From Sipunculus nudus (lineage: Eukaryota > Annelida > Sipuncula > Golfingiida > Sipunculidae): a DNA stretch of 64,000 bases. The notes under the pieces were generated by a model, which was not told the origin of the DNA, did no database searches, and was given only the letters and a program-made list of their open reading frames with translations. Positions 239 through 49,000 of this stretch are shown in pieces (the stretch's first letter is position 1; each line of letters opens with the position of its first letter). The DNA lies in assembly GCA_026874595.1 (NCBI GenBank), contig CM049316.1, positions 14,699,839 to 14,763,838 on the forward strand. The letters are read 5' to 3'. Position numbers and translations under genes: made by a program.

Positions 239-479
239 ATTATATTTGCAGGGACGACAGGCATCCTTTCTGAAGACACAATGCCACGACGTCAGCTCAA
301 ATGAGGAATAGTGGGATCGTTGGTTCCAGGGGCTGTTGAATGCACTCCAAAGGGAACTTCACCACAATTCTTTTTGAAGAAATACCGCAGTTCATAATCC
401 AGAGTGGCTGCTACGCCAAGAAGGGGTTTACTCTAGAGGAGTAAATGCGTTTAACCCAGTTATCCTCAACCTACAGTTG

Positions 480-13600: not shown

Positions 13601-14760
13601 ACAGTTACTGCAGTCAGGCCACTGGAAGTAGTTGCAATCGATTTCACGGTCCTAGAGCCCGCTACAGATGGAAGAGAAAACACCAAGTCATCAATGATGT
13701 ATTCACAAAGTGGACTGTCGCAGTCCCAACGCGCGACCAGAAGGCCACAAGTCGCCCGAGTATTGAGCCGAGAGTGGTTTTCAAGGTATGGTCCACCATC
13801 ATGCTTACACAGTGATAGAGGCCGAGATTTCGAGGGTCATGTTGTCCGTGCCTTGTGCGAGACGTATGGAGTGAAGAAGTCTATAAACAACTGCGTACGG
13901 GCCCCAATCCAATGGGCAATGTGAACGGTTCAACCGGACCCTACACGATTTATTGAGGTCCCTCGAGGCAAACAAGAAACGCCGATGGCCAGAGTACTTA
14001 ACCGAGTTAGTGTTTGCAAATAACGTCATCCCCACTAATCGACAGGATACAGCCCATTTTACTTATTGTTTGGTCAGGAGGCGACCCTCCAAGATGATGT
14101 GTATCTCGGATTGGATCAACAAGAACTGGATATTGGTGAGATATCCTGGGTGACGGCACACCAAGGCCATATGCGAGGGGTGTACACTATTTGTACAGAG
14201 GAACCTTACAAAGGCAGCAGAAATGCGTAAGCAAAGACATGATGTGACTGCACGTGAACAGCCGCTAGAGCTTAGAACATATGTCTGGATGCGGAATCGT
14301 GGACTGCGGGAGAGGCATAAGATAGCTGATGCCTTTCGTCCTGAACTATACAAGATCCTGTCCCGGTTTGAGGACAAGGATGTATATAAATACAAAGAGA
14401 TGAGTGCGAAGGAGCACCAAAATCGGTGAATCGAGAAGAACTTTTGGTAGTTGACGCCAATCCAGGAGTAGCTGTGGATGTAGAGCTGGAGGATCAACCG
14501 AATGAGACTGTTGTAGACCAGGATGAGGATGGTGAGATAGAACAGTACATTGTACTTCAGCAAGATCCACCACGGGCTCTCTCAGGACCAGATCCACGTG
14601 AAAGCTGCGACCGAACGACGCTCAACCGCAGCCGCGCAGATACCCTAAGCGGGCGAATGTTGGACAGCATACTAATTTGCACCACGAGCCTCGGTCTATG
14701 TCGGGAAACGAGCTGGAAGCTCGAGAGAAACCGTTGCCGAACACATTGAATATTACTGTT
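10695..14760 (+). pseudogene. pol of the 8-15 kb Gypsy element (PR, RT, RNase H, IN)
   Basis: Domains in order: aspartic protease with an intact DTGS (Asp codon at 10812); linker (10901-11503); reverse transcriptase (11640-12370) with LCVDYRKLN, a GLANSPETWQRLM block and the catalytic YFDD at 12100-12111; thumb and connection with YLGHVV and FLGFCSYYRRF; RNase H (12560-12860) with VDTDASSQG and ITDNNPLTYF; a 'YRPGRKNVGADALSH' block (12888); integrase zinc finger near 13450 (HDENGHQGV); integrase core with AIDFTVLEP (about 13640) and HSDRGRDFEG (about 13808). The Glu-containing block is scrambled. Stops at 11502, 11935 and 12852 and several frameshifts disable it. Confidence 0.88.
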
Positions 14761-25385: not shown

Positions 25386-26203
25386 GATAATTGCGAACCT
25401 GGCCCACTTTACAATACTTAATATCCGAATGAACCTCATACTGTGAGAAACTGACTGCGCGTACCTTGCAGGGTCGCCCTCGGATGTAATTAGTATAATG
25501 GTTCTTATTTGATTCATAAGGGGCATGTCTGAGACTTAGGCTGCAGATAGGAATAACCAAAACCCTTGCAAAGTTGTATGGGGATGCCCAAAAATGGTAG
25601 CAGCCGATCTCTATGCCATTAATTAAAAATAAACATGTCATTTAGTACCTGTCAGAATCTAATATTATATCACATAATTAAACAAAATACAAAATTAAAC
25701 ACCAGTACAGACAAATATGAAATTATAAGATTCATCTTTTTCATTGAACCTGTCAATCCAGGGGTCGAAATTATAATACAAAGCTTGCGCAACGCAAGCT
25801 TTAATCCATCAACGCAACCTGAGTTGAAGATTGACTTGCGGCAGCCGCAATGCCAAACCGTCACATACATAGGCCTATATAGGTTGACAATGGCCATGAA
25901 AAAAACTTTAAGACCTTCAGTTGCGATCATATATATTTCAATTATTTGTCATCGCCATCCTTATGTCTTGCACATCGCGGCGCCAACCTGCCGCGGGTTT
26001 TCCGGGTGATGCTGTTTGCTTTCATGATTGTGTTCCTTCATTACGACAGTAGGCTACTCTCCTGCCGCGGGTTTTAACTTGTGCTGCCGACTGTAAAATC
26101 GTTACCGCATGTGCCACGAGATGTCAGCACACACAGCGCAGCGTCAGCAGTTGTGTTTCTCGCGAACTACGTCACCAAGTCATGCGTCTCAAATCCTGCA
26201 AGG
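25386..26203. other. no gene recognised; perfect 10-bp hairpin
   Basis: AT-rich sequence. A perfect inverted repeat AAAGCTTGCG/CGCAAGCTTT with a 3-base loop lies at 25780-25802. Open frames on both strands here show no family resemblance. Confidence 0.45.
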
Positions 26204-26250: not shown

Positions 26251-27199
26251 GTACTGCTGCTTTTAAAATGCATATTTTTACCATTACTTCTTAACATTTA
26301 AGTCCCAATAATGGCGCAACAGGAAATTTAAGGTGTAATTCACGCGACGTTTCTGACTTTAATAAATTTTACGTCCTGTATAAATGGATCAACATGCAGC
26401 GTCTCAAACCGATTCTGACCTTGTCTTTGAGATGGCAAAGACAGACAGTTATTGTTTCCATTACGAACGTAGAAAAAGATTTAAAAAGAAGTTTCAGTTG
26501 TTTATTGTGCATAATAAGCAACTTGGGAAGTTTTCAAACCGAGCTGTACATTACTGCAATTGTGGCCAGAGGGCCGTTTCCCCGTCTTTTGGATGGGCAG
26601 TCATCAATCTGGATGGGCATATGTCACTCGAGGCGGCCTTCATATCCTACATTTATTTAAACCCCATTTGTCATAAATATAGATAATTCTCTAAAAATAA
26701 CGATTCATCATTATTCTAATGATTATACTATTGAAATATTGTATGAACGTTCCATCTGACAAATTTAACTAGAAAGATTTATGTTTAGCATATGGTCCGA
26801 CGAGCGATAATATAATACAGTAGAGCGTCGTTAATCCGAAAGCCTCGGAGGACGAGCTTTTTGTTCGGATGACCGATCGTTCGGATGAACGATTTCGCAT
26901 GAAATTGCTCTGGGAATCACCGTGATTAAGCCTACAGCCGTGTTCGGGACATTACCAGATAGTGACTGACCGAAATTGATTTAGCTTACCCCTGTTAAAC
27001 GTGTGACAAAATAATATAACGTTTTCGTTCGATTTAACAAATTTTTCATATGTTTTCATATGGAACACATAATTATATAATAATAAATACTGGTGAAAAG
27101 CCCTGCGCTGGAAACAATCGGTATCGTACCTACGTCATGAAACGCGTGGCTGCCATGATAACTGGAATGGCCTGCCAAGACCTCATGAGTTCTGCCATC

Positions 27200-27413
27200 T
27201 GTAAGGGAACCGCACTTGTGCCGACTTGTCATGAGGACGAGCTTGCTGGGGATTGATGTGACGTGAGGAAGACACGGGAGAGATCACCGCCAGAAGCCAG
27301 CTGAAGAGCGCTCGACAACCTGTTGTGCACGGAATCTACGCGCTGACTTAGTGACATCCGTGTGAGTGTATGTTAACACATTCATGTAAATGTAATCTAG
27401 TGTAAGGATTACA
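27200..27413 (+). repeat. 5' LTR of the TatD-carrying element
   Basis: 214 bases, starting TGTAAGGGA and ending GGATTACA, matched by 39486-39699 with six substitutions and no gap. It follows CATC. Confidence 0.95.
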
Positions 27414-27415
27414 TC

Positions 27416-27428
27416 TGGCGACGTGGAT
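27416..27428 (+). promoter_or_regulatory. primer binding site (TGGCGACGTGGAT)
   Basis: Two bases after the 5' LTR the sequence TGGCGACGTGGAT begins with the TGG expected to pair with a tRNA CCA end. The Gypsy element at 62.7 kb has TGGCGACAGGGGG in the same place. The tRNA is not assigned here. Confidence 0.65.
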
Positions 27429-27942
27429 AATTTTTTGTGTGTCAGAATTTGACACAATTGAAGCGAGCACTTTGACAATCCTTGCATTGTCGCCCGCCTC
27501 GTGTTTCACCCACTTGCGATGTGCATACGTTGTCTCAGTACAGAGGCAAATTCGATTTCTAAGCTTACTCTCCGGGAAGATTTTAGTATAAATATCACCC
27601 TTATATTCCAAACCAATTGACTAATATACCTATAGGTCTTAATAGTAAGTTTTTAGCTGATATTTTGGGATATTTTGAGTTTACTGTTGAGCTGTGCCTC
27701 GGACCCATGAGGCCTGCCGATCACGTGATCACCATGAGCGGCGCACGTGTTTGAACGATCTTGGTTGCTAGACCCTCAATCTGGCTATTGTCAACCATTT
27801 AAATCTTTTTCACAGTTCCCACTTCAGTAAAATTGGATATACTTTATAATATAACCCCTCCTGTTGTCATTTCAACCTTGCTTTAGCTAAAAAGCCAATT
27901 TTCTGCCAGCATCGCTGCTGCAAACCCAGTTATATGCTTTAA
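27429..27942. other. leader of the TatD-carrying element, part 1
   Basis: Non-coding leader between the primer site and an inserted MITE. The minus-strand frames here are short and without resemblance. Confidence 0.5.
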
Positions 27943-29426
27943 AGCCCCGTTCCCACTTTCACGAATTTGACGCCGAATCTCCACGAACTTACATCATTAA
28001 AATTCGTAGGGACGTCGTGGGAGTGTCCTGGATGATGTCTTGAACATTCGGTAATGTTCGTAGTGAGGTCTTGAGCACTCAGAATTCGTGGCGCTATTTT
28101 TGAAATGTTCAAAAATTAAACTTTGTCGTCGCAAGTCGTAGCTAACTCGTAACAGTTTCTTGGTAAGTCGTATGAGAGTCTTCATAATTCTTGTAAATTC
28201 GTGATGTAAAACAATGTCACGAATGCTCACGAAGGACAATGACATCGACACGACTTCAACACGACTACAATACGACAACCACAAGAACCTCTCAAGAGAG
28301 AGTCACGTTCATAAAGCCCCTTCGTACTTCCACGAATTTGGTGACGAATCATCAAGAACTGACATCATTATATAACGGAAAAGTTTATTTTCTTAGTGAT
28401 TTTTAACTTCTTACAAACCAATGAGGAATAAGGTTTAGAAGTAAGAACACTGTGTAGATTTGTAAATTTGTTTTAAAGAAGATTTGTATTGTGGTTAATG
28501 GTTCCAACTAAATTTGAACTTAAATAATTTGAAGAACCTGAATCAAATTACGTTTCCTTTGTAATTTGTAACTTTTTTGTAAACAAACAAGGAAGTTTTT
28601 GCAGTGAGTAAACCATGTAGATTCGTAAATTTGTTTTAAAGAAATTTTTTTTTATCGTGGATATTGGTTGACAAAATAAATTTGAACCAAAACAGTTTAA
28701 AGAAGCTGAATATATTATACAGTTTCGTCATACTTAAACATATGGTCAATATGATAAATTATGAATTTCCTATTTTACTATGGGAAAATAAACTGAGCCT
28801 AACACAAATTAATATTAACATAATCTTATATCACATTGAGAGCTGAATCAATAAGATATTTTAACCAATATTTTGAGAATACAGATATTTTACATCCGAT
28901 TAAGACGGTCGTCTACTTGGACTTAAAGAAGTTATCGTCGTATTTGCCACCACATAAATAAGTCGTAATTGTCTAATTACTCAAATCAAATGAGACATAT
29001 ATTATCAGTGTTTTAAACTGGATAACTTTTGTCAAATTAAAACATCTGGAGAAGTTAAGTAAAGTGTTGTTATGGTGTCCTTTTACTAATATCGTCTTCT
29101 TTGTGACATTACAATAGCTATATATCACATATAAAGCTATCTAACAATCCGTAGCAAAATTGAATGATCGTAGGAGTATCGTCCACAAGTCGCAGATTAA
29201 TCGTGGAAATATCGTACCAGTATCTTAGACATCGTCACGGAGCCGTGAACATTCTTGTGTCATATCGTGCTGGCTTCGTGTCACTGTCGTAGCCAATCGT
29301 ACTGGCATCGTACTCCTTTCGTACAATATCGTGGTCGTGATGGAATTTTTATCACTCGACAGGCCGATTGGCCACGAATTCAACATCGTGGCGATTCGGC
29401 GTCAAATTCGTGAGTGGGAACGGGGC
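27943..29426. mobile_element. 1.5 kb MITE-like element with ~45-bp inverted ends
   Basis: The left end (agccccgttcccactttcac, then gaatttgacgccgaatc) is the complement of the right end at 29384-29426 apart from a few bases. Both sides are flanked by TTAA (27939-27942 and 29427-29430), as for piggyBac and Kolobok elements. The termini are full of tcgta/cacgaat words (27960-28320 and 29160-29400), and a shortened internal copy of the left end lies at about 28313. There is no ORF for a transposase. Confidence 0.75.
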
Positions 29427-29499
29427 TTAAGTGACATATAGTTACTGACACCAATAATTTCATTGCACATATTTGCAGTTTGTTCATTCTGTCAGTAAT

Positions 29500-29960
29500 A
29501 TATAAATATATACACTGACATCACTCGCAGTGATAGTAATTTCCTGCAATTCACTGACCTCATTGTCAGTGATATTTGCATTGTCAGTGATAATTGCACT
29601 AACAATTGTTTCTAGTGTCACTGCCCTCATTGTCAGTGAAATTTGTATTGTCAGTGATATTTGCACTGACAACTGTTTCTAGTGTCACTGCCCTCATGGT
29701 CAATGCTATTTGCATTGACAGCTGTACCTCTAGCGTCACTGCCCTCATTGTCAGTGATATTTGCACTGACAACTGTTTCTAGTGTCACTGCCCTCATGGT
29801 CAGTGATATTTGCATTGACAGCTGTACTTCTAGCGTCACTGTCCTCATTGTCAGTCATATTTGCACTAACAACTCTTTCTAGTGTCACTGCCCTCATGGT
29901 CAGTGATATTTGCATTGACAGTTGTACTTCTTGTGAATGTACTTTGTGCAAGTTTCCACC
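29500..29960. repeat. 50/100-bp minisatellite
   Basis: Units of about 50 bases alternate in two versions, giving a 100-base higher-order period: identical frames start at 29682, 29782 and 29882. Each unit has 'tgtcagtgatatttgca' and 'tagtgtcactgccctcat'. The frames reported over it are repeat artefacts. Confidence 0.9.
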
Positions 29961-31259
29961 CCCCCCCCCTTGTCAGTGGTATTATTTTATATGCACTGAC
30001 ACATTTTTTTTCTTTTCATTTTTCGTTTAAACTTGCTTGCACCTTGCATTCACTGTCAGTGGTCAATTCACTAGCATTCCCTTATGGTGACCAGACCTCA
30101 CTGTAAGCAGACGCATTAATTTTGTAAGTGTCACATATTTAAGCAAGTTGCCCAGACTTTCAACTGTGCAGGTTGTGATATATGTTTAAGCTGTGTTTAT
30201 TTTTTGCACTGATTGTGCCACGCCTTGACACAACCAGATATATATATATATATATATATAAAGAAAACAAGTCATAGTAGTAGTACAGGAATAATACAGC
30301 ATTGTTTCATAACTTAACCAATAAAGTATTTCCCTGCAAGTTACAGTCACTTCCAGTGATATACAGTGATTAACTTTATCATTGAGAGTTAAAATTACAG
30401 TGATCATATTTCATTGTCAGTTCTCACTACTTTCAGTAATATACATACTTACTTTATCATTGCAAGTTACACTTGCTTGCAGTGATCACATTTCATCGCA
30501 ATTTGCTGTTCTTTCAAAGAATTTACGATATACCTGCTAACCGGATCATTGAGAGAGATCCTTTCAATGATACACCTTCACTGCAAGTTTCTACTGTTTT
30601 CACTGACCTCCATATTAACTGCAAGCTACGCAGACTTTCAGTAACCTACTCACTGAGAAATACTTCACCTCATATTGACAAATTAATGGGGTCCCTTAAA
30701 TTTTAATGACATGTTTTCTAGGTTCCATAACACTTATCATCCAACACTCATCTTTTAAGTATTCCTTTAGTATTGTTCTGATTTCAGTGTCATCAACACA
30801 CGGAGCATTTTAGTCTGTCCATTACCAGTAACAAAAACTGACTGATCGATTTACACCGACTTTGTAATAGGTACCGAGAGTCCTCTTTATTGGTTAACTG
30901 AGAGTCTGCAGCTCATTGTCGCATCTAATATCTTTATTGACCGTAATACCTGAGTGACTATACTGTACTACAATAAACTTTCCATTGCCTACCAATCTTA
31001 TGATACAGTCTACTTAATTTTATTCATTACACTTCAGTCATTGTGGGTGTTCATTAATTAATGTGATTTATGCCTATAGTCTTTCCAGTCTATATGTATA
31101 TCTCATATCTGTATGGTCACACCTGATGCTATTGTCGTTAGTACAGCTTTAAGATTTCGCTGTTTAAGCCCTCAGTAACATACTAACATTGTTGCTTAGT
31201 TCAGACCTAGCACTTTGCTTGGGCTAACATCCTCACAGTAAGAGAAAAAAGGGGGCGGA
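29961..31259. repeat. degenerate continuation rich in cagtga/tcactg words
   Basis: Dispersed cagtga, tcactg and tttatcattg words continue to about 30670, as if an older part of the same tandem array had decayed. (TA)n is at about 30237-30260. After 30710 there is plain AT-rich leader up to gag, with no gene. Confidence 0.55.
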
Positions 31260-31346
31260 AACTAGGCAGTTTAATACATCATGGCTGGTATTGGTGTATA
31301 CTTGATCATGGCAAGCCATCAGCAGTTGGATTTATGTACAGCATCA

Positions 31347-32261
31347 TCAAGGCAGATGTGAGAGTTTTTGCCGGATATTCTCACCATAGAAATGGCCAGG
31401 AAAATAGTCCTCCTCCGGGACGAAAATCCGGGATTCGGCCCAGAGGATCTGGAAACAGTAACTGGAGTAGAATCCGCCACCTGGCACCAACTCGTCAGTC
31501 AAGACAAACTGTGTTTCCCTTACACGGAACCAATGGTAGCCTCCCAGGAGGACAGTAGCATTCACAGTCCTGTGCGTAACAACAAATCCAGTCATACCGA
31601 TCCTAAAATTGGTCAGTTATTAAGAGCCCACCCGAAACAAGGTGTCTATGCAGGGGCCGAGGCTCAAAGAAGTTAACCCAGAAATTCAAACGGCAGTCAT
31701 CATTTACCACAGGACATTGCTGATTAATTGCCTCGAACTGACCCACTGGCGCCTGGAAATGCACATCAATTTACACGGAATGGGTCAATAGGATCATCGT
31801 GTAGCTCAAAACTGCCCTATTCTTATCATGTGGGCCATGATGACAGCAGGGCCACCAATATTGAGGAATTCCGGCATCCCCCACGCCAGGACCTGTCTCC
31901 TTTTAGTGCACATGAGCTGTACACAGTTCCTCAGAGTGCGACACGACATGTCACTCGCAGACGTTTACCTACTTACATGTGATGAAACAAATCTGGATAG
32001 TTATGGCTTTGACATGGTCCAAGAGGTACCACACGGTAATGTGGTTCAGCTTACTCGTAGACCAGAGAGAGAGTACATCCATAGACCCTACGGAGGGCCA
32101 GCTCCTCATCAGAGCATATCGGAGAGAGGGTACATCCATAGGCCTTACAGAGAGCCAGCTCCTCACCGGAGCATATCTGGACATACTTCTGGCAGATATC
32201 CAATTTCAAGGTCCACCCCATTAGAGAGCAAGTTCCAAACACGTATGCGGAACTACCACCT
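31347..32261 (+). pseudogene. N-terminal gag region with helix-hairpin-helix-like domain
   Basis: The frame 31368-31676 contains LTIEMARKIVLLRDENPGFG, then PEDLETVTGVESATWHQLV. This pattern (helix, 'R...p.f...eDL..v.Gv...W..L') looks like a helix-hairpin-helix DNA-binding domain. It is followed by Ser/His-rich low-complexity sequence. At about 32066-32180 a 19-residue unit is repeated (YIHRPYGGPAPHQSISERG and YIHRPYREPAPHRSISG), within frame 31828-32628. Several frame changes occur. In the intact element this was probably the N-terminal part of gag or a separate small ORF. The HhH call is by pattern only. Confidence 0.5.
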
Positions 32262-33385
32262 GTGTCCCATCACAGGTCCAGGATTCGAACTAAATCTGAC
32301 AGGCACCTTAGGGACTATAGAAATCAAAGTAGTTCAGAGAGTGCCGATAGTTCCTGCGATCGCGAGTGTAGGTCCCGCCGACGAAAATATCACAGGTATC
32401 GCAGTGACAGTTCCAGTTCAGATACCTCAGTGGAACGATCTATTCAAGGTCATCACTTGTACACCAAACGCTCGAGCAGTCCCCAGGCCCCTGCAACTTT
32501 TACAGGCAGTGGAAATAACAGCTGGGATAGTTTCATCTTCCAGTTTAACAGATATGCAGAGAGATATCAGTGGTCAAACCGCAAAAAGGCAGAACGTCTA
32601 CTGGACTGTTTATCAGGCAAAGCCCTAGATTATGTAAGAGAACTTAGGCTGGAAGCTGACTATAAAACCTTGACCCGCAAGCTTGGAAAGAGGTTTGGAA
32701 ATAAAGATGCACCCATTTCTGTGAGACGGGAACTACAGTACTTGAGACAGCAGGAAACCCAGTCCTTAGAAGAGTTTAGTCAAAAGTGCTTTTTCAGGTC
32801 ATGAGCGGCTTTCCAGGAGCCAGAGAGTCCATAGTTGAACAGCTGGCGGTAGAATATTTCCTCAAAGGGTGCCTAGACAAAAAGGCGGCGGCTACTGCCA
32901 TGGGCAGAAACCCTACACGCATACACAAGGCTGTTCAGTATGATAAGGATGCGATAAGTAACTACAAGGCAATATATGGCAAGCTCTCTCACCCAATTCG
33001 CAAGGTTAGTTTTGAGAATCTAATAGACCTGGAGGAAGAGGCAGACTTTCACTCCAGAGCTGCAAGTGTGCAGAATGTTCAACCTCAAACACGCATCAGG
33101 AGCATGCCCTCAACAGGTTCCAAGGAAGCTGATGGTCAGATCAATGAACGCATTGACCAGATGAGTGCTCACTTTGGTCAACGAATGGGCAACATTGAAG
33201 CTATGCTACAAAAGTTGATGTCTTCCGCAAGACCCCGTCCATGATCAAGGTCCCCAAGTATCCATAAATCACCTCAGAGATCTAGTGAAGTGGTATGTTT
33301 TAAATGTCATCAGAAGGGCCACTTCAAGAAGGATTGTGTTGCTCCTGCACAGTCTGAGGAGAGGCCGGAGAATTTAAACGACTAG
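32262..33385 (+). pseudogene. gag of the TatD-carrying element
   Basis: The N-terminal Ser/Arg-rich part (residues 1-70) leads into a capsid domain: 'WDSFIFQFNRYAERYQWSN', LLDCLSGKALDYV and a RFGNKDAPISVRREL block. A one-base loss near 32788 shifts the frame. It continues at 32786-33244 with 'FPGARESIVEQLAVEYFLKG' and a coiled-coil tail. An in-frame TGA at 33242 interrupts it, and the same frame then carries a perfect CX2CX4HX4C zinc knuckle (CFKCHQKGHFKKDC, 33296-33337), ending at a TAG at 33383. Gag would form the particle and bind the RNA. Confidence 0.88.
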
Positions 33386-36300
33386 GGGTTGGGCCCGCCG
33401 GCCAAGACTCAACCCATTCATTTAGTGGCCATCAAGTAGTATTGGGCAGTAACACAGGGTCCTCTGTTGAACCGGCACACGACAAGCATGGAAGGATCGA
33501 AAGTAACTGTCCAACGTCGGTAGTAGTGGCATGGACGTCATGCAAGGGACGTTCCCTTGAGGTACCAATAGAATTTAATGGCGTTAAGGCTAGTGCCACA
33601 CTGGACAGCGCGGCGCAGGTCTCCATTGTCAACAGAGAACTTTTTGATCAGTTACAGTCAAATGACATGGTTTACCTAGGGAAGGTGAACCTCAAAGGCA
33701 TAGGGAAAGATAGCAAGGTGATTCCTGCCGTAAAAATCAAAGGACTACAATTCATTCTAGGAACTAAACAATATGTTTGGGCCTGGTATGTGGCAGACAT
33801 CACCGAACCGGTGCTGCTTGGTCTGGATTTTCTTGCATGCGAACAGTGCATTATAGATTTCGCTGACAATACTGTTTCCATGCCGGACAACTTAGTACTG
33901 GCGACTCTTAAAGAAACTCCCAAGGAAAGATCTGTCAAGACGGCCTCGCTGACTGACAGAGAAGCCATGGGAGCAACAGGGGAGTTGCCTACTCATACCG
34001 AAACAGTGATCACAAATGGGGTTCTACCAGGTCACCTAGAAGATCTTTTTAGCCATTCAGTATCAACTCTCAGCAGGGTCCAAGCTGAGGCATTGCAAAA
34101 AGTGCTCTCTGATTATAGTGATGTCTTTGCGAAGCACGAGTTTGACCTTGGCTGCGTGAGGTCAATCAAACACAAAATAGACACCAAGGACGCATCTCCA
34201 GTAAAGCAGAGAATCAGGCGCACCCCCCTTGGTTTTGAGGGAGAGGAACAAAAGCACATAGAGAAAATGTTGAAAGCCGGGGTGATCCAACCTTCAAGTT
34301 CAGAATGGGCCTCAGCACCAGTCCTGGTGAGAAAGAAAGATGGAGGCGTACGTTACTGTATTGATTACAGGGCGTTAAATGAAAGAACTTCCAAGGATCA
34401 GTATCCGCTCCCACTGATAGAAGACTGTATGGATACATTGTCAGGTACCAAATTCTTCAGTACCTTGGACCTTGCGTCAGGTTACTACCACATTGAATTG
34501 GACGAGGCTTCCCGACCGAAGACACCATTCATCACAAGATTCGGCCTCTTTGAGCATACAAGACTTGGTTTTGGTTTGTGTGGAGCCCCAGCTACTTTCC
34601 AGAGGGCCATGAACATTGTTTTGCGAGACATGATCTGGAAAGACGTTCTTGTCTATATCGATGATGTGATCGTTCTGGGAGAGACATTTGGGCGACATAT
34701 GGAGAATCTGACAGAGGTCTTCAAGAGAATGAGGACACATAACCTAAAACTAAAGCCCAAGAAGTGTGTCTTACTAAGTCCGGAGATGGAGTTCTTGGTA
34801 AGCATATCAGTGCTGATGGCATATCTGTTACAGAAAGTAAGGTTTTAGCAATGAGAACCTGCCCTCCACCATCTTGCCGCAAAGATTTGGAGTCCTTTCT
34901 CGGTTTTGTAAACTATCATAGGACCAACATCAAGGAATATGCGAGCCTCACAGCAGATTTATATGCCCTGACAAAACCCAGAACTCAGTTTGAGTGGACA
35001 CTGACACATCAAGAGTCCTTTGAAGTCCTCAAAAGTGTCGTTTGTACTGCACCATGCCTTGCATTTCCAGTGAAAGATGGGCAATTCATTTTAGATTGTG
35101 ATGCTTCCCACACTGCCATTGGGGCAGAATTATCTCAGCTACAGGATAATGTCGAGAGAACCATTGCATATGGCAGTTTCGTACTGACCCCAGCACAGCG
35201 GAAGTACTGTACTACACGCAAAGAGCTTCTTTCAGTTGTCAAATTCTGCAGACAGTTTCGGCATTATCTGCTTGGGAAACGGTTTCTCATCAGAACTGAT
35301 CACAACTATTTGGCTTGGCTCATGCGGTTTAAATACATTGAAGGCCAGTAGGCACGGTGGATCGAGGAACTGGCTCAGTTCGACCTTAAAATTGTCCATC
35401 GCCTGGGTGCCAAACACCAAAATGCAGATGCCCTCTCTCGCCTCCCTGATATGCTGGATGAATGCAACTGTTACCAGGCGGGTAGTAAGCTGGCCGATCT
35501 TCCATGTGAGGGCTGCAGATATTGCAGTAGGGCTCACACTCAGTGGGAGCGTTTCTTAAGCGATGTTGACGAGATTGTACCCTTAGGAGTGAGGCATCCA
35601 ACACCCTGTGCCCAGGAAGAGCCGATCCCTGTATGTCAAGCAAGTTGTGTCTCAGACCCGTCAGATGAAGATGATAATGATGAAGGACTGCATCCGTCTG
35701 CTGCCCAGTCGCATGAGGACTTGGCCGGTTCCTCTTATGTTCAGTCAGTTGCGGACCAAGAAGGAAATGTTACATCACAAGGAGGTACCCAAACTTCAAA
35801 TTGGATAAAGTGCTACAGTTCAACAGAACTTGCTTCCTTGCAAGGGAAAGATCCAGACATTGGTCCGGTCATTCAGCAGATGGCTCTGGCTGTACAAGCC
35901 TCAGCTGTTCTTCAGTAACACAGTCCTGTATTACAAACTGGAAGGACAAGATGGCCCATCATCACAATTGATTTTGCCGGCCGTCCTGCGCTCAGAGGTT
36001 CTAAACCTGTGTCATGATGGAAAGACAGCGGCTCATGTAGGTTTTAAAAAAACCCTAGCCAGGCTAAAGAGGTCTTTCATGTGGTATCAGATGCGTCTTG
36101 ATTGTAAACTGCACTGTCTGGCCTGCAACCATTGCAACAGAAACAAGAAAGCTTCGACTAAACCTAGGGCAAAACTTCAATCATATCATGCAGGGGCACC
36201 AATGGAGCGTGTCCACTTGGATGTTTTGGGCCCTTTTACAGAGAGTGAGAGTGGAAACAAGTTCATAATAATGATGATAGACCAGTTTTCAAAGTGGGTT

Positions 36301-37415
36301 GAATGTGTTACAGTCCCCGAACAATCGGCAGTTACCATTGCAACTAAATTCTTAGATAGGTTCGTTAGCACGTTTGGTTGCCCCATGTACGTGCACACGG
36401 ACCAAGGAACCAATTTTGGTTCGCAGTTGTTCGCTTCTGCCAATTGTTAGGGATTGCACGAACAAGGACAACTCCATACCATCCCAGTTCCAATGGACAA
36501 GTGGAACGACAGAATCGCACTGTCCTGCAGATGGTACGTTGCCCTATTGATGGGAACATAAGAAACTGGGACCGAGACCTCCCGCTGATATCCATGGCTC
36601 TGCATTCAATGGTTAATAAGTCTACTGGCTACTCAGCCAACCAGATCATGCTTGGCAGAGAAATGGTTTAGCCAGAGGATATCATTTTCCGAACATCACG
36701 GATCAATACTGGAAACCTGCCAGAGGGGAATGTGGATAAATGGGTGCTTACTCTCAGAGAACGGTTGACCCAAATCCATGCAATGGTGAGGGAGAGAATG
36801 AAAGGTAAACAGGCCTACCAGAAGAAGTACTACGATTTAAGAGCTCGTGAAAAACAGTTTGAGCCTGGCGAGCTCGTATATCAACTTGATAAGACCACAA
36901 AGAAAGGCTCCAGCCCTAAAGTGCAGCCAGTGTACAAGGGCCCTTACTTCATTAATGTGAACAAACACCCAGTCTACCGCGTGCGAACAAGGAGGAAGGA
37001 GAAATACTTCCACCACGACAATCTGAAAGGTTGCAACACAAAGTACGTGCCACTCTGGCTTCATAGAGCCAGGAATCAATTTTATGCAGAGCAAGAAGGG
37101 AAGCAGGCAGTTATGGCAGAGGATCCAGAAGCCATTGAAGGGGATCCAGACTCCAGCTTTTGTGACACAGTGCCCATTGACCTGGAGAGCTTTTGTGATT
37201 CACCTGATGTGTTGACAACAGCCCCTAAAACCAAGGACTCTGTTAAAAAGTGCACTGCTGCAGAGGTTACCTCGGAACACACTCTCATTCTTGATAAAGT
37301 TGTCCAGAGTCATACAACTAAATTTTCAAATAGTGGCCTCCATGATCAGGGTGAAACCTTTACCAGTAGGGGTCGGAGGATCAGAAGACCCAAACACCTG
37401 AAAGACTTCGAGTGA
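33386..37415 (+). pseudogene. pol of the TatD-carrying element (PR, RT, RNase H, IN)
   Basis: The largest piece is 33442-34848 (468 codons): aspartic protease with LDSA in place of the usual D(S/T)G (Asp codon at 33604), then RT with YCIDYRALN, LDLASGYYHIE, GLCGAPATFQRAM and catalytic YIDD at 34654-34665. A one-base loss near 34797 shifts the frame to the thumb and RNase H (LDCDASHTAIGAE, IRTDHNYLAWL). TAG at 35349 interrupts RNase H. Integrase follows another shift near 35905: HHCC finger (35990-36150) and core Asp codons at 36220 and 36400. A shift near 36440 precedes Glu 36504, and TAG 36669 precedes the C-terminal GPY-like and basic tail (36732-37415). Pol is in the -1 frame relative to gag. 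Confidence 0.92.
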
Positions 37416-37722
37416 TTTAAGAATAAACAGATTTCAGTATGGCTTTTTAAGGCCTTCCGTTTCTTGTAAATAGAATAGAATAATTTTCTTCTCTAGTGTG
37501 CTTCCGACAGCGGTGTATGAAGCGGCTAAAGTCTGCTCCATCCTCTGTTGGGTGCTCGCTCATTAGTCATAAGGACGCCATAAGAAATTGCAGATTGGAT
37601 TTGCTGCCTATTTTTTATTATGCTGGTATTGCCTCCCCGTTGGGATTACTCTAATCAAGTAAGGCCGTACTGTAAAATTTTTAGTAAGGTCATTTTCATT
37701 CTCATTATCGTTATAATTCCAT

Positions 37723-39411
37723 GTGACTGAGTTTAAAGATTTAGATGAGGCGAATTTCTGCCCTGACTATGAGGAGGACGTTTCACTCCATAGCCAGGGT
37801 AAATCGGGGAGAAGACAATCTCGTAAGTGCCTGATATGTGGCCAGCCAGACCGACACCTGCGGCGTCACTTGGCCAGACAGCACCTTCCCTGGTGGTATC
37901 AGTCCACCACGGCTTTTTGGCAATGTCAAGTTCAGGAGGGGTGCGAAGGCACCCTGAAAGCCAGACATAAACATCCTCACTCGCCCAACAGGCAGCTCTG
38001 GTATCTCCATGTCAAGCGACTGCTCGACAAAATTCAGGTTGATTTACACCTCAGCTCAATAGAACAGCTGCGTCTCTTTGTCATCGAGGAGGGGTACTTT
38101 GCCAAGGACGCAGCATTCGGCGATGGAGAGGTACCACTGCTCCAGGGAATCTCCCGGTACCACCAGTGGGAGATCCAGGGTGTTATCAGAGCTGCCCCAC
38201 CGAACTGTGTGGCAGGCTTACTTCACTATAAGACTATGGCAATACTTATCTCACAGTTGTCACCTCTGGCTCGGGATGCCATATGTTCATCAGACCCGCT
38301 TATTTTCCCCAACTCCCCAGGTTCCCTGGAAACATCTAAACTGCAGTTGGCAGATGCTCACGGACATTTGGACATGCTAATGTCACGCCTCGGGGTAACA
38401 TTTGAAGAATTACAGGCACAAAACAAGGACTCTCCTATATATTTGTTTGGAATAATAGCAAACTTTGTGTATCCTCACCATTATCAGTCGGCCCAAGCAT
38501 TACATATTCACCCTGAAGTTAAAATCACATTTGGTTACCACCCTAAATTAATACAGGATGGAAACATTGTAGACCATGCCATGAAACAATTAACATCTTT
38601 AATAGATAACCCAAGCTGCTGTGGACTGGGACAAATCGGTCTTGACTTTGGAGGTAGTTCACGTAGGTCAAAACACCAGCAAAGACAGTTCTTGCAGAAA
38701 GCTTTGGTCCTGTCCCTTGATCATCCTGAAAAAGTCATTGTCCTGCATTGCAGGGATTGCGGTGATGGTTCTGCAGCAGAAGAGACTATGCAGCTGCTGC
38801 TGTCTCTAGGTTTGGGGAGCCACAAGATTCAGAGACACTGCTTCTGTGGAACTGCGCATGAGGTAATGAAATGGCAGAAGGCTCTCCCCAACTGCTATTT
38901 CAGCTTATCGAGTAAATCCCTGCAGCAAGCACAGGTCAGATACGCAGTGACTCAAATTCCCATTGATAGGATACTGGCGGAGACGGATTGTCCATATTTG
39001 GCCGGGACACCGTGGGATGTTGTGGACACAGTGGCAGGCATCGCGAGACTTAGAGGCACGTCCGTAGAGAGCATGCAGACGCCTGTAACCGCAATCTTGT
39101 ACGGCTGTGTGGGGAATTTAAGAGAGCCTAGGGTATTAAGAATCCCACTTGGTCCTTGCTCTGTGACTTCAAAGATGGGGATAGGAAGCACCCCGCTCCG
39201 CTCTTTTCCCCTATGGGTGGCCCACCTAGCAAGGACTCGCTTGTTTCAGGCTTGTCAATGGTTATTCTTAGCCTTTTACATTAAATATTATTTGGATAAG
39301 GAAAACTTTAAAGGTTCTGCCCGTTATTTACTTTATGTGACCTGTGGTCCATGTGATAAACATAAATGGAGGCCCGCTGGCCAGGCCCGCTGGCCAGAAC
39401 CAGTATCCTAG
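37723..39411 (+). CDS. zinc-finger/TatD-like hydrolase encoded by the LTR element
   Basis: An uninterrupted 562-codon frame lies 300 bases after pol and 60 bases before the polypurine tract, where env usually sits. Residues 1-130 hold Cys/His clusters (CLICGQPDRHLRRHLARQH near residue 37 and a CX5C...HKH group). Residues 130-205 are a helical linker with APPNCVAGLLH. Residues 207-450 are a TatD-type TIM-barrel: HxH at H213/H215, H342 (VLHCRD), H372 (RHCFCG) and D422 (LAETDCPYL). The Glu usually found in GE.GLD is Gln304 (GLGQIGLD). TatD proteins are metal-dependent DNases/exonucleases of about 260-300 residues, so extra domains exist at both ends. No signal peptide or membrane segment is visible. 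TATDN2 is the nearest named relative in layout. Whether it is active is not known. Confidence 0.85.
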   Translation: MTEFKDLDEANFCPDYEEDVSLHSQGKSGRRQSRKCLICGQPDRHLRRHLARQHLPWWYQSTTAFWQCQVQEGCEGTLKARHKHPHSPNRQLWYLHVKRLLDKIQVDLHLSSIEQLRLFVIEEGYFAKDAAFGDGEVPLLQGISRYHQWEIQGVIRAAPPNCVAGLLHYKTMAILISQLSPLARDAICSSDPLIFPNSPGSLETSKLQLADAHGHLDMLMSRLGVTFEELQAQNKDSPIYLFGIIANFVYPHHYQSAQALHIHPEVKITFGYHPKLIQDGNIVDHAMKQLTSLIDNPSCCGLGQIGLDFGGSSRRSKHQQRQFLQKALVLSLDHPEKVIVLHCRDCGDGSAAEETMQLLLSLGLGSHKIQRHCFCGTAHEVMKWQKALPNCYFSLSSKSLQQAQVRYAVTQIPIDRILAETDCPYLAGTPWDVVDTVAGIARLRGTSVESMQTPVTAILYGCVGNLREPRVLRIPLGPCSVTSKMGIGSTPLRSFPLWVAHLARTRLFQACQWLFLAFYIKYYLDKENFKGSARYLLYVTCGPCDKHKWRPAGQARWPEPVS

Positions 39412-39470
39412 ATTACAATTGTGATTATTACCGTGTTTGCATGTGTAGTTTCGTCTTATAGTTTCATCCA

Positions 39471-39485
39471 GAAAAGGGGGAGGAG
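39471..39485 (+). promoter_or_regulatory. polypurine tract
   Basis: gaaaagggggaggag directly precedes the 3' LTR (TGTAAGG at 39486). It is the expected plus-strand primer and fixes the LTR start. Confidence 0.92.
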
Positions 39486-39699
39486 TGTAAGGGAGCCGCA
39501 CTTGTGCCGACTTGTCATTAGGACGAGCTTGCTGGGGATTGATGTGACGTGAGGAGGACACGGGAGAGATCATCGCCAGAAGCCAGCTGAAGAGCGCTCG
39601 ACAACCTGTTGTGCACGGAATCTACGCGCTGACTTGGTGACATCCGTGTGAGTGTATGTTAACACATTCATGTAAATGTAATCTTGTGTAAGGATTACA
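39486..39699 (+). repeat. 3' LTR of the TatD-carrying element
   Basis: Matches 27200-27413 with six substitutions. It is followed by CATC, the copy of the target site. Confidence 0.95.
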
Positions 39700-39703
39700 C
39701 ATC

Positions 39704-42410: not shown

Positions 42411-42885
42411 TTAAGTTTGAAATTTTTGCAAATGCAAAATATTCTATTTTAATGTTTTTCATTTATATAAGCATATGAGAAGCTAAGAGGAAAGAGGAAC
42501 TCTTACTTGGTTATAGTAAAGTTCTAAATATATGATTGCAAACTAATACTCTGACAAGACTGTCATGAAGAAAAACAGTGAAAATTTTGAGATACTGTGA
42601 TGCATATGAAAAATTTACAGATGGACAGGCCAGTGGACAGTATGGACTAATACCTTTATTTCAGTTTCAAGGGAATAATGCATTTAAGTTTAAATATCAG
42701 CCTATTATTTAAGCATATCCACTTTTTCCATTAAAATAGTTTTTATCTGATTAATTTTTTTTTTATTTACAAGTTTTATAAATTTGTATTTAAAAACACT
42801 GAAAATATAAGTTAAAATATTAGAATTCTAAGTTGCAGTCATTATATATCCAGAGTGTAGCTCATATTGGGTCATATTATGCATA
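42411..42885. other. AT-rich spacer, no gene recognised
   Basis: T/A-rich sequence between the ZNF862-like piece and the 3.1 kb tandem duplication. Confidence 0.5.
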
Positions 42886-45800
42886 CACATATATTTTTAT
42901 TATCTTTAAATCACAAATGTTTAAACTGAATTTAAAAGAAAATAATGCCACAACATGGCATCTACATGATTATTCCTTGAATCACTATTAAAAAGTATTG
43001 CACATTGGAGTTTTCAGTACATGCTTAATCTTATTCACTGAAATAAAATAAAAGAGTCAGTAAATTTGATAAATAAAAACATCTTTTCAAATAAAGTATA
43101 CACACTGTTGGTTGAATGAGGGACAAATAATATCATTATGCTAATTACAATCTAAGCTATAATTTATTACTGGAATTAATAGTCAATTTCACACCTGGGA
43201 AGTTTTTACTCTTCTCAAGTAAGGAATTATCTGATGAACATCCACACTTTCATAGCAATACACCACTTTGTGGACACAATTAAATGTGCACTTTAATCAT
43301 TGTAACCCTCTAGGTAAATACAAAATCTAAAATGTAGCATTGCATAGCCAAGAATAAAATGAAATACAGAAAATTATAACATTCATTTAGTTAATGCACC
43401 ATGGGGGGGGGGTGTGCAGGGCAAAGGGGAAGCCTGCTTGTAGTGGCCAGGCTGAGCCAAGGCAAGCTGCCTGGGGTGGGTTACATAATGCAAGTGAAGG
43501 CTGTACTACTAGATGGGCTAGATGAAAACACTTGACATGGTTTATGAAAACTTGAATAAAAGCTACTCTTTTTCAATCCATTCCTTTGAAATTTCATATT
43601 TTAAAAGATTAAATCCTTATGTATATATGCCGTGAAAATTAAATCAACAGTGCTTACAGGGAATAAACGTGCCATTGCCAAAGTTGGACAAAATTTAAGG
43701 TACTGATTTTTTATTTATGCTAATAACTTGAAAAAATTGCAAAATTCAGATCTAATTTTGGGTAAACAATTGAATCTTGATTAAATAAAGTTATATTCCT
43801 GAAAACAAGGCCTACAGGCCTAATGTGAACCTGTGCAAAGTTTTGGAGTATGAATGGAGGTTTATTTTTTTAATTTAATATTGTTCCTTTTAAGTCATGC
43901 ATATCTAACTTAGTCATTATGATTTCAGCAAAATGGACATTTTGGACCTGCAAGTTTCAGACTACGACATTTTAAAACTAGAATATGGGTAGTCGACAAG
44001 CAACTATGTGTATCCGCAGAAATCAGAGTGGGACGGGTGAAGTGAGGCATGGATTAAGTGGCAAGGGGAATAGGGTAAGGTGTGTTGCATATTAGCTTGG
44101 ATGTCTGCAGCGTAAATGTGAATGTAGGTGGTGCCACCTGTCATAAAATTGAGAAAATTGTCCAGGATGTATAAACCTGCAAAATTTCAGGTGGAAAAGT
44201 CAAACCACTGCTGAAATATGAGTAATATTATCCCAAGGCAGATGAACAGATGGATGCTGTGCATAAGTGGTTGCAGGTGGCACCACCGGCTTTGCCTATG
44301 ATGAAGAGCTATGTGAGATCTATACACATGCAAAATTTTGGCCCAATCGGCAAATGGTTCCCTAGATATGAGCTTGGATGTCTGCAGAGTAAACCTGAAT
44401 GTAGATGGCGCCACCTGTCATAAAATCGAGAAAGCTTTCCAGGATGTATAAACCTGCAAAATTTCAGGTGGATAAGTCAAACCACTGCTGAGATATGAGT
44501 GATATTATCTCAAGGCAGATGAACAGATGGACGCTGTGCAAAAATGGTTGCAGTTAGCGCCACCATTTTAGTGCAAAATTTTTAGCCTGATTGGTCAAAC
44601 GGTTCCCGAGATATGCGGGTTTATGTGTGGAAACAGATGTACAAATGGACTCTGGGCAGCTAGGAAAGGTAAGAGGTCAACCAAAAATGAGTGCTCAGCA
44701 GTTCACATATGACCTGATGATAAACCCAATTCGCTTAATATGCAAACCAAATTTTTTCAAACAGTTGAAAAATATAGTTCCAATAATCTGGAAATTCTGC
44801 ATCAAAACATTGTGTCTAGACGTCTAGACGCTGTGACACCCCCCACCCCCCCCCCACCGAGCCAGGTCAGTTGCCATGGTGATGTCTGGACCCCACCTGT
44901 TTGTACAGAGTGACCTCTTGACTTGGCTGCTGAAACTCATCATGTTGTCAAATCTGTGTTCAAAAACAGAAAGCCTTTTTCAATTGGCTACAATGTTTTT
45001 TTTTAAACTGTATTTAACCAATCTATTCTTATAAAACTGGCAGAACCCTACCATAGAATAATTCTGGTAAAGTTTAAACCAATCAGCTTAACAGTTTCAT
45101 CATAAATCAGTGTATAAGCTAGAAGTTTAAAATTACATTTTCGCTTGTAAAAAACCACATCACTGTAGGTGGCGCCACCAATAACTCAAAATCAGATATG
45201 ACATATGTGACAAACATAGGTATAAAATCTGGTGATTATAGCTCTAGCCGTTTCTGAGATTTTAATTTTAGTGTGCTTTTTTGGACAGATGACTAAGTTC
45301 AACCTCCTGCAACTTGGCCAAAAATCTCGGAACTGGAACCATTTGAACAAACTTGAGAGAGATTGTTCCAGGGATCATTTCTGTGAAATATTGGACAATT
45401 TGGCTGAACAGTTTCAGAGAAGAAGATTTTTAAAGGTTTTTAGGCTTTTTCTCTACAAAATCAAAATTAATGCAGATACCCAATAATAAGCACCAGGGCA
45501 CCAAGTTACACTTGTGACTTATTCTTACATGTAATTTGGAGCTGCTAGCTCCGACGGTTTCTGACTTACAGCCATGGACGGCCGAAAGCCAGTCCTGGAC
45601 GGCGGACGGCTGTTGATAGACGGACGACGCTGCGCCATCTCATAAGCTCACGGGTTCGCTAAAAAGTCTCCCGTTTCATCAATTCTCATCTTAGGTGAGT
45701 AAATATATTTCTTGATTTTTTATAAAGTGCATTATGGTTGGGCCCATAACTTTTAAAAAATATGCAATACTGACATCATTTATGGCATGTGCATAGCGAA

Positions 45801-45990
45801 TGTATTGAAAAATATGTATATTTTATATGATCAAAATTAGATCAGTGGTTTTGATATTAGGCAGTCGTAAAGTGTAACAATGGGTTTTTTAATGGAAAAA
45901 TGAAGTTTTTCATTAATATCTCGAAGGAATTAAGTCCTAGTGAATAAATTCTTGGCATGATAGGGGATTTTGGAGACATCTAACTGTATG
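42886..45990. repeat. 3.1 kb tandem duplication, unit 1
   Basis: From 'cacatatatttttatt' to 'agacatctaactgtatg' this unit is repeated head-to-tail at 46007-49124 at an offset of about 3121 bases, with few substitutions and small indels, mostly in G and C runs. It contains a full copy of the ~2 kb repeat (43806-45665). The frame at 44591-44827 recurs at 47718-47954. Confidence 0.95.
43806..45665. repeat. ~2 kb interspersed repeat, copy C
   Basis: It begins 'aggcctacaggcctaatgtg' with aacctgtgc and ends 'aagctcacgggttcgc'. Units of about 170-300 bases repeat inside with 'ggtggcgccacctgtcataaaat' and 'cctgcaaaatttcaggtgg' words. A C-run lies at about 44839-44858. Confidence 0.85.
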
Positions 45991-46006
45991 CTGATTTAAC
46001 TGTATG

Positions 46007-49000
46007 CACATATATTTTTATTATCTTTAAATCACAAATGTTTAAACTGAATTTAAAAGAAAATAATGCCACAACATGGCATCTACATGATTATTCCTTG
46101 AATCACTATTAAAAAGTATTGCACATTGGAGTTTTCAGTACATGCTTAATCTTATTCACTGAAATAAAATAAAAGAGTCAGTAAATTTGGTAAATAAAAA
46201 CATCTTTTCAAATAAAGTATACACACTGTTGGTTGAATGAGGGACAAACAATATCATTATGCTAATTACAATCTAAGCTATAATTTATTACTGGAATTAA
46301 TAGTCAATTTCACACCTGGGAAGTTTTTACTCTTCTCAAGTAAGGAATTATCTGATGAACATCCACACTTTCATAGCAATACACCACTTTGTGGACACAA
46401 TTAAATGTGCACTTTAATCATTGTAACCCTCTAGGTAAATACAAAATCTCAAATGTAGCATTGCATAGCCAAGAATAAAATGAAATACGGAAAATTATAA
46501 CATTCATCTAGTTAATGCACCATTGGGGGGGGTGGGGGTGTGCAGGGCAGAGGGGAAGCCTGCTTGTAGTGGCCAGGCTGAGCCAAGGCAAGCTGCCAGG
46601 GGTGGGTTACATAATGCAAGTGAAGGCTGTACTACTAGATGGGCTAGATGTAAACACTTGACATGGTTTATGAAAACTTGAATAAAAGCTACTCTTTTTC
46701 AATCCATTCCTTTGAAATTTCATATTTTAAAAGATTAAATCCTTATGTATATATGCTGTGAAAATTAAATCAACAGTGCTTACAGGGAATAAACGTGCCA
46801 TTGCCAAAGTTGGACAAAATTTAAGGTACTGATTTTTTATTTATGTTAATAACTTGAAAAAATTGCAAAATTCAGATCTAATTTTGGGTAAACAATTGAA
46901 TCTTGATTAAATAAAGTTTTATTCCTGAAAACAAGGCCTACAGGCCTAATGTGAACCTGTGCAAAGTTTTGGAGTATGAATGGAGGTTTATTTTTTTAAT
47001 TTAATATTGTTCCTTTTAAGTCATGCATATCTAACTTAGTCATTATGATTTCAGCAAAATGGACATTTTGGACCTGCAAGTTTCAGACTACGACATTTTA
47101 AAACTAGAATATGGGTAGTCGACAAGCAACTATGTGTATCCGCAGAAATCAGAGTGGGACGGGTGAAGTGAGGCATGGATTAAGTGGCAAGGGGAATAGG
47201 GTGAGGTGTGTTGCATATTAGCTTGGATGTCTGCAGCGTAAACATGAATGTAGGTGGTGCCACCTGTCATAAAATTGAGAAAATTGTCCAGGATGTATAA
47301 ACCTGCAAAATTTCAGGTGGAAAAGTCAAACCACTGCTGATATATGAGTAATATTATCCCAAGGCAGATGAACAGATGGATGCTGTGCAGAAGTGGTTGC
47401 AGGTGGCACCACCGGCTTTGCCTATGATGAAGATCTATGTGAGATCTATACACATGCAAAATTTTGGCCCAATCGGTCAAATGGTTCCCTAGATATGAGC
47501 TTGGATGTCTGCAGAGTAAACCTGAATGTAGATGGCGCCACCTGTCATAAAATCGAGAAAGCTTTCCAGGATGTTTAAACCTGCAAAATTTCAGGTGGAT
47601 AAGTCAAACCACTGCTGAGATATGAGTGATATTATCTCAAGGCAGATGAACAGATGGACGCTGTGCAAAAATGGTTGCAGTTAGCGCCACCATTTTAGTG
47701 CAAAATTTTTAGCCTGATTGGTCAAACGGTTCCCGAGATATGCAGGTTTATGTGTGGAAACAGATGTACAAATGGACTCTGGGCAGCTAGGAAAGGTAAG
47801 AGGTCAACCAAAAATGAGGGCGCAGCAGTTCACATGTGACCTGATGATAAACCCAATTCGCTTAATATGCAAACCAAATTTTTTCAAACAGTTGAAAAAT
47901 ATAGTTCCAATAATCTGGGAATTCTGCATCAAAACATTGTGTCTAGACGTCTAGACGCTGTGACACCCCCCCCCACCCCCCACCCCCACCCCCCGAGCCA
48001 GGTCAGTTGCCATGGTGATGTCTGGACCCCACCTGTTTGTACTGAGTGACCTCTTGACTTGGCTGCTGAAACTCATCATGTTGTCAAATCTGTGTTCAAA
48101 AACAGAAAGCCTTTTTCAATTGGCTACAATGTTTTTTTTAAACTGTATTTAACCAATCTATTCTTATAAAACTGGCAGAACCCTACCATAGAATAATTCT
48201 GGTAAAGTTTAAACCAATCAGCTTAACAGTTTCATCATAAATCAGTGTATAAGCTAGAAGTTTAAAATTACATTTTCGCTTGTAAAAAACCACATCACTG
48301 TAGGTGGCGCCACCAATAACTCAAAATCAGATATGACATATGTGACAAACATTGGTATAAAATCTGGTGATTATAGCTCTAGCCGTTTCTGAGATTTTAA
48401 TTTTAGTGTGCTTTTTTGGACAGATGACTTAGTTCAACCTCCTGCAACTTGGCCAAAAATCTCGGAACTGGAACCATTTGAACAAACTTGAGAGAGATTG
48501 TTCCAGGGATCATTTCTGTGAAATATTGGACAATTTGGCTGAACAGTTTCAGAGAAGAAGATTTTTAAAGGTTTTTAGGCTTTTTCTCTACAAAATCAAA
48601 ATTAATGCAGATACCCAATAATAAGCACCAGGGCACCAAGTTACACTTGTGACTTATTCTTACATGTAATTTGGAGCTGCTAGCTCCGACGGTTTCTGAC
48701 TTACAGCCATGGACGGCCGAAAGCCAGTCCTGGACGGCGGACGGCTGTTGATAGACGGACGACGCTGCGCCATCGCATAAGCTCACGGTTTTGCTAAAAA
48801 GTCTCCCGTTTCATCAATTCTCATCTTAGGTGAGTAAATATATTTCTTGATTTTTTATAAAGTGCATTATGGTTGGGCCCATAACTTTTAAAAAATATGC
48901 AATACTGACATCATTTATGGCATGTGCATAGCAAATGTATTGAAAAATATGTATATTATATATGATCAAAATTAGATCAGTGGTTTTGATATTAGGCAGT

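Follow-up and report, generated by a model that had tools for sequence, protein, structure and literature searches.

A Ty3/Gypsy retrotransposon lineage of Sipunculus nudus carries a TatD-type reading frame downstream of integrase

Can a TatD-type nuclease be a regular part of a long terminal repeat (LTR) retrotransposon? The question is raised by a stretch of 64,000 nucleotides from the genome of Sipunculus nudus (GenBank assembly GCA_026874595.1, contig CM049316.1, positions 14,699,839 to 14,763,838 of the forward strand), referred to here as the window, which contains a decayed Ty3/Gypsy copy at positions 27200 to 39699 with a TatD open reading frame (ORF) 3' of integrase. An earlier note on this DNA had proposed that the element captured a TATDN2-like host gene together with a zinc-finger region. 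We find TatD at repeated element loci of the same genome and regard both the arrangement and its stable carriage as practically certain. Sequence comparisons further make it rather probable that these elements form a Ty3/Gypsy clade whose third ORF (ORF3), a fusion of a zinc-binding module and a TatD domain, encodes a metal-dependent nuclease, perhaps one that acts on RNA or RNA-DNA hybrids and aids replication.

TatD-bearing elements are repeated and recently mobile

A PF01026 profile search over the window's own genome (1.43 Gb) returned 138 matches. Three of them are exons of a host gene (L028), and 14 fall on small contigs (C61 and above); without these, 121 matches are left, which represent at least 108 TatD loci on 17 large contigs, a few of them perhaps no more than short fragments or individual exons from further host TatD genes. 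We read 10 kb around 20 places, mostly high-scoring matches, one of which is the host gene. The gag and reverse transcriptase (RT) genes lie upstream in the same order at 18 of the 19 non-host loci, though L020 and L026 show no integrase-core match, and all five extra loci from other families have matches to parts of integrase within about 2 kb upstream. Altogether, pol genes precede TatD at 23 of the 24 loci read. The exception, L019, has the structure LTR-TatD-LTR with gag-pol gone; its LTRs are 99.1% identical, and TGCT stands on both sides. Because L019 retains the splice acceptor and the pol-end sequence, we interpret it as an internal deletion and rejected an origin from spliced RNA.

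Six further elements have LTR pairs that are 100% identical in five cases and 99.6% identical in one, with 4-bp duplications (ATAA, GTTA, CTTT, ATAT, GTAT, and CTAT), that of family A also being readable as five bases. Six family A copies match L010 at 98.5 to 99.6% identity over about 8.65 kb, and four family B copies match L015 at 98.8 to 99.9% over about 8.4 kb. In L010 and L018, gag is a single frame of at least 688 and at least 653 codons (both cut by the start of the stretch), pol a single frame of 1472 and 1510 codons, and TatD a single frame of 505 and 516 codons (the last two genes measured stop to stop), the TatD frame opening 25 and 49 bases after the pol frame, respectively; the pol of L015 is in two pieces. 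Pol has the order protease, RT, RNase H, and integrase in L010 and L018, too. Whole elements have integrated recently with TatD inside. Family B elements (L014 to L017 and L024) also contain an imperfect repeat with a 90-bp period near the end of pol, at oriented positions of about 5990 to 6320.

These data bear on the alternative that a host TatD gene was inserted by chance at one element, the other copies being host paralogs or assembly artifacts. At least one spliced host TatD gene is indeed present (L028), but the number and spread of the TatD loci, the pol genes upstream of nearly all those read, and the LTR pairs and duplications that enclose whole elements make this explanation exceedingly improbable. 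We rejected a single-copy capture or artifact on these grounds and on the RT-locus counts given below; the entry of TatD into one single copy, which the earlier note had named as a way for its proposal to fail, does not agree with the upstream pol genes.

TatD tracks one group of the RT tree

We compared the 121 TatD matches with 90 RT loci (101 rows minus 11 second pieces of listed loci), which come from 91 scored of 7439 candidates, and counted TatD if it lay on the same strand, downstream, and within 14 kb of the RT. TatD is present downstream of 55 of the 63 loci with at least 57% RT identity, at class medians of 3.3 to 3.7 kb, and of 1 of the 27 loci below 57%. This single case is family WC, whose 47% was measured over a longer stretch. 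Together with the upstream pol genes, these counts bear out TatD as a stable part of the element.

The RT tree unites the TatD-bearing families and two TatD-less loci in one group (support of 100/100). Both TatD-less loci are family A copies, so we interpret them as losses in single copies; since they nest in family A, we rejected the seven TatD-bearing RTs as an exclusive clade. Close relatives lacking TatD, another outcome held to count against the proposal, do exist, but the two placed on the tree fall within a TatD-bearing family. At L061, one of the eight close loci without TatD, the downstream stretch read contains no TatD.

The window copy is a decayed member of the lineage

The features of the window element are as follows.

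27196..27199, no strand: left target-site duplication CATC, the same four bases as at 39700-39703
27200..27413, plus strand: 5' LTR, 214 bp, TG..CA, 97% identical to the 3' LTR
27362..27367, plus strand: candidate splice donor GTGAGT in the 5' LTR, weak in the window and stronger in five sister families at a similar LTR-end position
27414..32261, plus strand: long leader, 4.85 kb, partly alignable to the family C leader
27416..27426, plus strand: candidate primer binding site TGGCGACGTGG, by inspection
32262..33244, plus strand: gag in two broken frames, PNMA match, Retrotrans_gag below cutoff
33442..34848, plus strand: aspartyl protease (below cutoff) and RT, from Pfam
34764..35351, plus strand: RNase H, from Pfam
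35830..36450, plus strand: integrase H2C2 and core, from Pfam
36732..37415, plus strand: integrase C-terminal part and pol tail, with matches in 17 of 19 element loci
37723..39105, plus strand: ORF3, fusion of N-terminal zinc-binding module and TatD, family-conserved part, starting with GTG
37828..37968, plus strand: putative zinc-ligand segment of ORF3, CxxC..RHxxxxHLPWW..C..H
38353..39090, plus strand: TatD domain PF01026, residues 211-456, from Pfam
38632..38634, plus strand: Q304 codon of the GEIGL motif, where the closest relative has glutamate
39106..39411, plus strand: out-of-family tail of the 562-codon frame, probably a frameshift product
39471..39485, plus strand: polypurine tract GAAAAGGGGGAGGAG, with purine tracts in the same place in five sister families
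39486..39699, plus strand: 3' LTR
39700..39703, no strand: right target-site duplication CATC

Much of the earlier description of this copy holds. The two 214-bp LTRs and CATC at both ends are where they had been placed, and candidates for the primer site and polypurine tract stand beside the LTRs, both assigned by inspection only, here and in the sister elements. TCTGGCGACG follows the 5' LTR of the window element, and TGGCGACGA follows that of all six other elements. The domains claimed as Gypsy gag-pol occur in Gypsy order (Pfam: gag [PNMA], protease, RVT_1, RNase H, H2C2, and rve), but gag and pol are split over several frames, and the protease and Retrotrans_gag matches fall under the Pfam curated cutoffs. 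Likewise, the 562-codon frame matches PF01026 well above the cutoff (E value of 1.3e-33; 116.9 bits versus 27), but it is not intact as a TatD gene. It begins with GTG where seven other members of an ORF3 protein alignment (A1) have methionine, and a frameshift probably gave rise to its tail, which has no counterpart in those seven beyond about residue 461. Where L039, its closest relative, has the glutamate of the GE[IV]GL motif, the window copy has Q304; the TatD of the window copy is probably inactive. The window copy is thus a decayed member of a lineage with better-preserved copies.

The zinc module looks older than the TatD domain

Lineage I (L063 and L065) lies outside the TatD clade, and its ORF3 carries the zinc module, with similarity over about 150 residues and the module's Cys and His positions kept; no TatD match follows the module in the 2-kb stretches read. 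Two other lineages differ in this place. Lineage J (L062), also outside the clade, has a different 541-codon frame after RT (L062:358-1980, minus strand), which contains two motifs like C2H2 fingers and matches nothing in Pfam above the curated cutoff, and lineage K (L064) has one 90-codon frame without similarity. Because an outside lineage has the module without TatD, the element seems to have had the module before it gained TatD. The simplest history, and most likely the right one, would be a single gain of TatD behind an older zinc module; alternatively, lineage I may have lost TatD.

The TatD domain itself is placed with a host gene. Twelve of this genome's TatD sequences and two from other genomes (P0001 and P0002) form one clade (100/99), and this clade and L028 stand together against 11 bacterial-type rows (100/97). 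The host gene spreads its TatD domain over at least four exons and has a long first frame without a zinc motif, in contrast to the element ORF, a single frame with the HLPWW module; the two share the TatD domain, with its IHRHCFTG and D.H.HLD motifs. Given a multiexon host gene and a continuous element ORF, the natural inference is that the TatD coding sequence was captured from spliced RNA. An intronless TATDN2-type coding sequence would then have been fused behind the older zinc-module ORF3 in the ancestor of the clade. The grouping with a spliced host gene rather than with bacterial TatD favors the host capture proposed in the earlier note, but not its further claim that the zinc-finger region came from the same gene: the host's TatD-bearing first exon shows no such motif, whereas TatD-less lineage I has it.

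TatD genes also occur on small contigs of the genome (L001 to L008; 230 to 233 bits to PF01026). L001 and L007, the two read, hardly differ from each other and fall with bacterial TatD in the tree, so these contigs may come from a symbiont or from contamination.

Selection, metal ligands, and expression

We sort the genome's TatD sequences into about ten families. PF01026 (TatD_DNase) is matched in 8 of 8 ORF3 members, and the TatD profile aligns with solved TatD-family proteins (two alignments shown). In an alignment of 27 sequences (25 from this genome, plus P0001 and P0002), the metal ligands H, H, E, H, H, and D are complete in 21, and each of the other six has one position changed (the window copy with Q304, L020, L024, L025, L036, and L037). 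We calculated the ratio of nonsynonymous to synonymous change (dN/dS) for 24 pairs of TatD coding stretches. Synonymous change is saturated in all nine between-family pairs, with dN of 0.22 to 0.70, and dN/dS is 0.25 to 0.53 in 12 of the 15 within-family pairs. TatD is under long-term purifying selection, and well-preserved copies probably encode an active nuclease.

The best splice-donor match falls in the last 18 to 52 nucleotides of all six LTRs tested, scored on 3' LTR copies by donor-site frequencies; the shuffle P values are 0.446 for the window and 0.084, 0.003, 0.066, 0.039, and 0.047 for the others. In families C, E, and D, an acceptor rich in pyrimidines precedes the ATG by 0, 11, and 94 bases, respectively; the acceptors of families A, B, and F and of the window are weaker. 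This supports a predicted spliced subgenomic message for ORF3. The protein would be expressed from an RNA that joins a donor near the end of the 5' LTR to an acceptor just before the ORF3 start.

A proposed nuclease acting on RNA or RNA-DNA hybrids

According to two studies, human TATDN2 is an Mg2+-dependent RNA 3' exonuclease and endonuclease that degrades the RNA of R-loops (PMC10707325), and medaka without tatdn2 have more R-loops in primordial germ cells (PMC12709183). By descent from a TATDN2-type protein, the ORF3 product should be a metal-dependent nuclease whose substrate is RNA or an RNA-DNA hybrid. We propose that the zinc module would guide the divalent-metal TatD nuclease to nucleic acid, that the nuclease would digest RNA from 3' ends or within hybrids with DNA, as is reported for human TATDN2, and that this degradation would help element transcripts or cDNA to get through in the nucleus. 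RNA or an RNA-DNA hybrid as the main substrate is a tentative assignment, somewhat short of an even chance. A broader picture is rather doubtful: that the clade has made a host R-loop-type RNA nuclease into a mobile accessory, expressed by splicing from the env position and passed from one lineage to another, which disarms transcript-based silencing or protects the element's own hybrids.

Several observations weigh against the proposed nuclease fusion and its carriage. The 24 TatD loci read are a nonrandom sample, mostly high-scoring matches, and 8 of the 63 close RT loci have no TatD among the matches listed. The origin tree used three host-gene exons and no named TATDN1, TATDN2, or TATDN3, and we take L028 to be TATDN2 from its features (IHRHCFTG and a long N-terminal part). 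Three within-family pairs depart from the pattern of constraint: dN/dS is 0.95 for the window versus L039, both decayed, and 1.42 for F_L044 versus F_L045, the latter with a stop, and one pair with two replacement and zero silent changes is undefined. The splice donors beat shuffled sequences only moderately (P of 0.003 to 0.45), and the acceptors were scored with no shuffle control. Since the element already encodes RNase H, a nuclease for RNA-DNA hybrids may be redundant.

The comparison of integrase and TatD trees over 11 families, in which the window and family E are represented by integrase rows that each join two aligned pieces, cuts both ways. Tree distances correlate (Mantel r of 0.62, P = 0.0002), and the G+H and D+D2 groupings are recovered in both trees. 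On the adverse side, W pairs with C in the integrase tree and with WC in the TatD tree, and each data set rejects the other's grouping of W (approximately unbiased test, P = 0.003 and 0.007; groups named after the trees were seen). The congruence of trees that had been put forward as a sign of stable carriage is thus found in part, with one supported conflict, and conflict-free coevolution of pol and TatD is unsupported for W, WC, and C. The conflict points to an exchange of TatD modules between element lineages. TatD distances are a median of 3.2 times the integrase distances, and such fast change would be more expected of a protein that faces the host than of an enzyme at the core of replication, which also counts against a role in replication.

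The presence of RNase H and this roughly threefold-faster change of TatD make a host-facing role a serious rival. The protein might degrade host silencing or defense nucleic acids, such as small RNAs, their precursors, or sensed DNA. Elements outside the clade have open pol frames of 1360 to 1378 codons and no TatD among the matches listed, which marks TatD as an accessory, and TatD modules seem to have been swapped among lineages. Both points suit counterdefense, as does the pace of change; yet fast evolution may equally mean weaker constraint, and the ligand positions are strongly conserved, so we hold counterdefense to be possible and on balance unlikely. We give much less weight to cDNA-end processing, in which TatD would trim the 3' ends of element cDNA before integration in the manner of the bacterial TatD 3'-5' exonuclease. 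In the copies read, the primer site is separated from the LTR end by one to three additional bases, which would suit such trimming. Against this, integrase performs 3' processing of cDNA ends in other LTR elements, and long pol frames are likewise present in relatives that lack a TatD match. It is comparably improbable that the TatD domain is catalytically dead and works in binding or structure instead, such as in an envelope substitute or RNA-binding protein. One ligand is lost in 6 of 27 sequences, including those of the window and L024, but all six ligands persist in the rest, in every family sampled, and L039, closest to the window, keeps the glutamate; the losses resemble the decay of individual copies. 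The reading that we prefer remains a metal-dependent nuclease that acts on RNA or hybrids and aids replication.

Comparison with known systems

Among the titles and abstracts shown from the open-licence literature, we found no TatD-bearing retroelement. The closest likeness is in the bdelloid rotifer elements Juno and Vesta (PMC5408684), which likewise have gag, pol, and a third ORF 3' of pol that is a captured nuclease and not an envelope. The paper describes ORF3s as expressed from spliced messages and, in a further likeness, reports earlier branches without the ORF3 enzyme and ORF3 types common to several retroelement lineages. The enzymes differ: the bdelloid ORF3 is DEDDy (RNase D-like) or GDSL, whereas the window lineage has TatD and a zinc module. 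The term TatD is absent from the main text of the bdelloid paper, and for the ORF3 proteins of the window and eight members Pfam lists no DEDDy-type family and matches TatD. Ty3/Gypsy elements and retroviruses with env use the same site, between integrase and the polypurine tract, with splice-type signals; for the eight ORF3 proteins, all of which match TatD, no env-type Pfam family is listed.

A TatD-type nuclease would thereby join the short list of env-position enzymes in LTR elements, with the distinction that its gain can be placed on a tree and that a relative still shows what looks like the older module without TatD. TATDN2 is reported to resolve R-loops, among other places in medaka primordial germ cells, and retroelement copies that arise in this cell type can be inherited; a role in RNA-DNA hybrids at retroelements can now be tested directly. 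Genes annotated as TATDN2 in invertebrate genomes may be element genes. A figure legend on the giant squid places a TATDN2 gene and a pogo-derived gene inside the Hox cluster (PMC6962438), and that this TATDN2 is element derived is only a guess. The mentions of TatD or TATDN2 in PMC6962438, PMC10778899, PMC5408686, and PMC5840709 concern other matters.

Searches beyond the genome and other features of the window

Viral contigs yielded no retroelement TatD with the window protein or alignment A1. A genome-contig collection gave five loci, all bacterial records at 25 to 28% identity, and phage records gave seven distant matches only (25 to 31%). Searches of other genomes, which scored 8000 candidates sharing most words, returned only P0001 and P0002, large ENA contigs known from TatD sequence alone; the N-terminal part of P0001 as a query found only P0001 itself.

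The window holds further TatD and pol remnants. A second, frame-broken TatD remnant lies at about 340-1400 (plus strand) and is closest to family D, at about 40% identity. A distant, broken Gypsy-type pol occupies 11558-14185 (plus strand), its RT about 36% identical to that of the element, with no TatD match downstream before a short TatD fragment at 25408-25530 (plus strand), which is 44 to 50% identical to the window family over about 40 residues. Beyond the element, several repeated blocks at 42880-48431, spaced about 3.1 kb apart and 96 to 99% identical, represent a recent tandem duplication, and a 439-codon frame at 60948-62267 (plus strand) matches a Mutator-like transposase (PF20700; E value of 7e-12).

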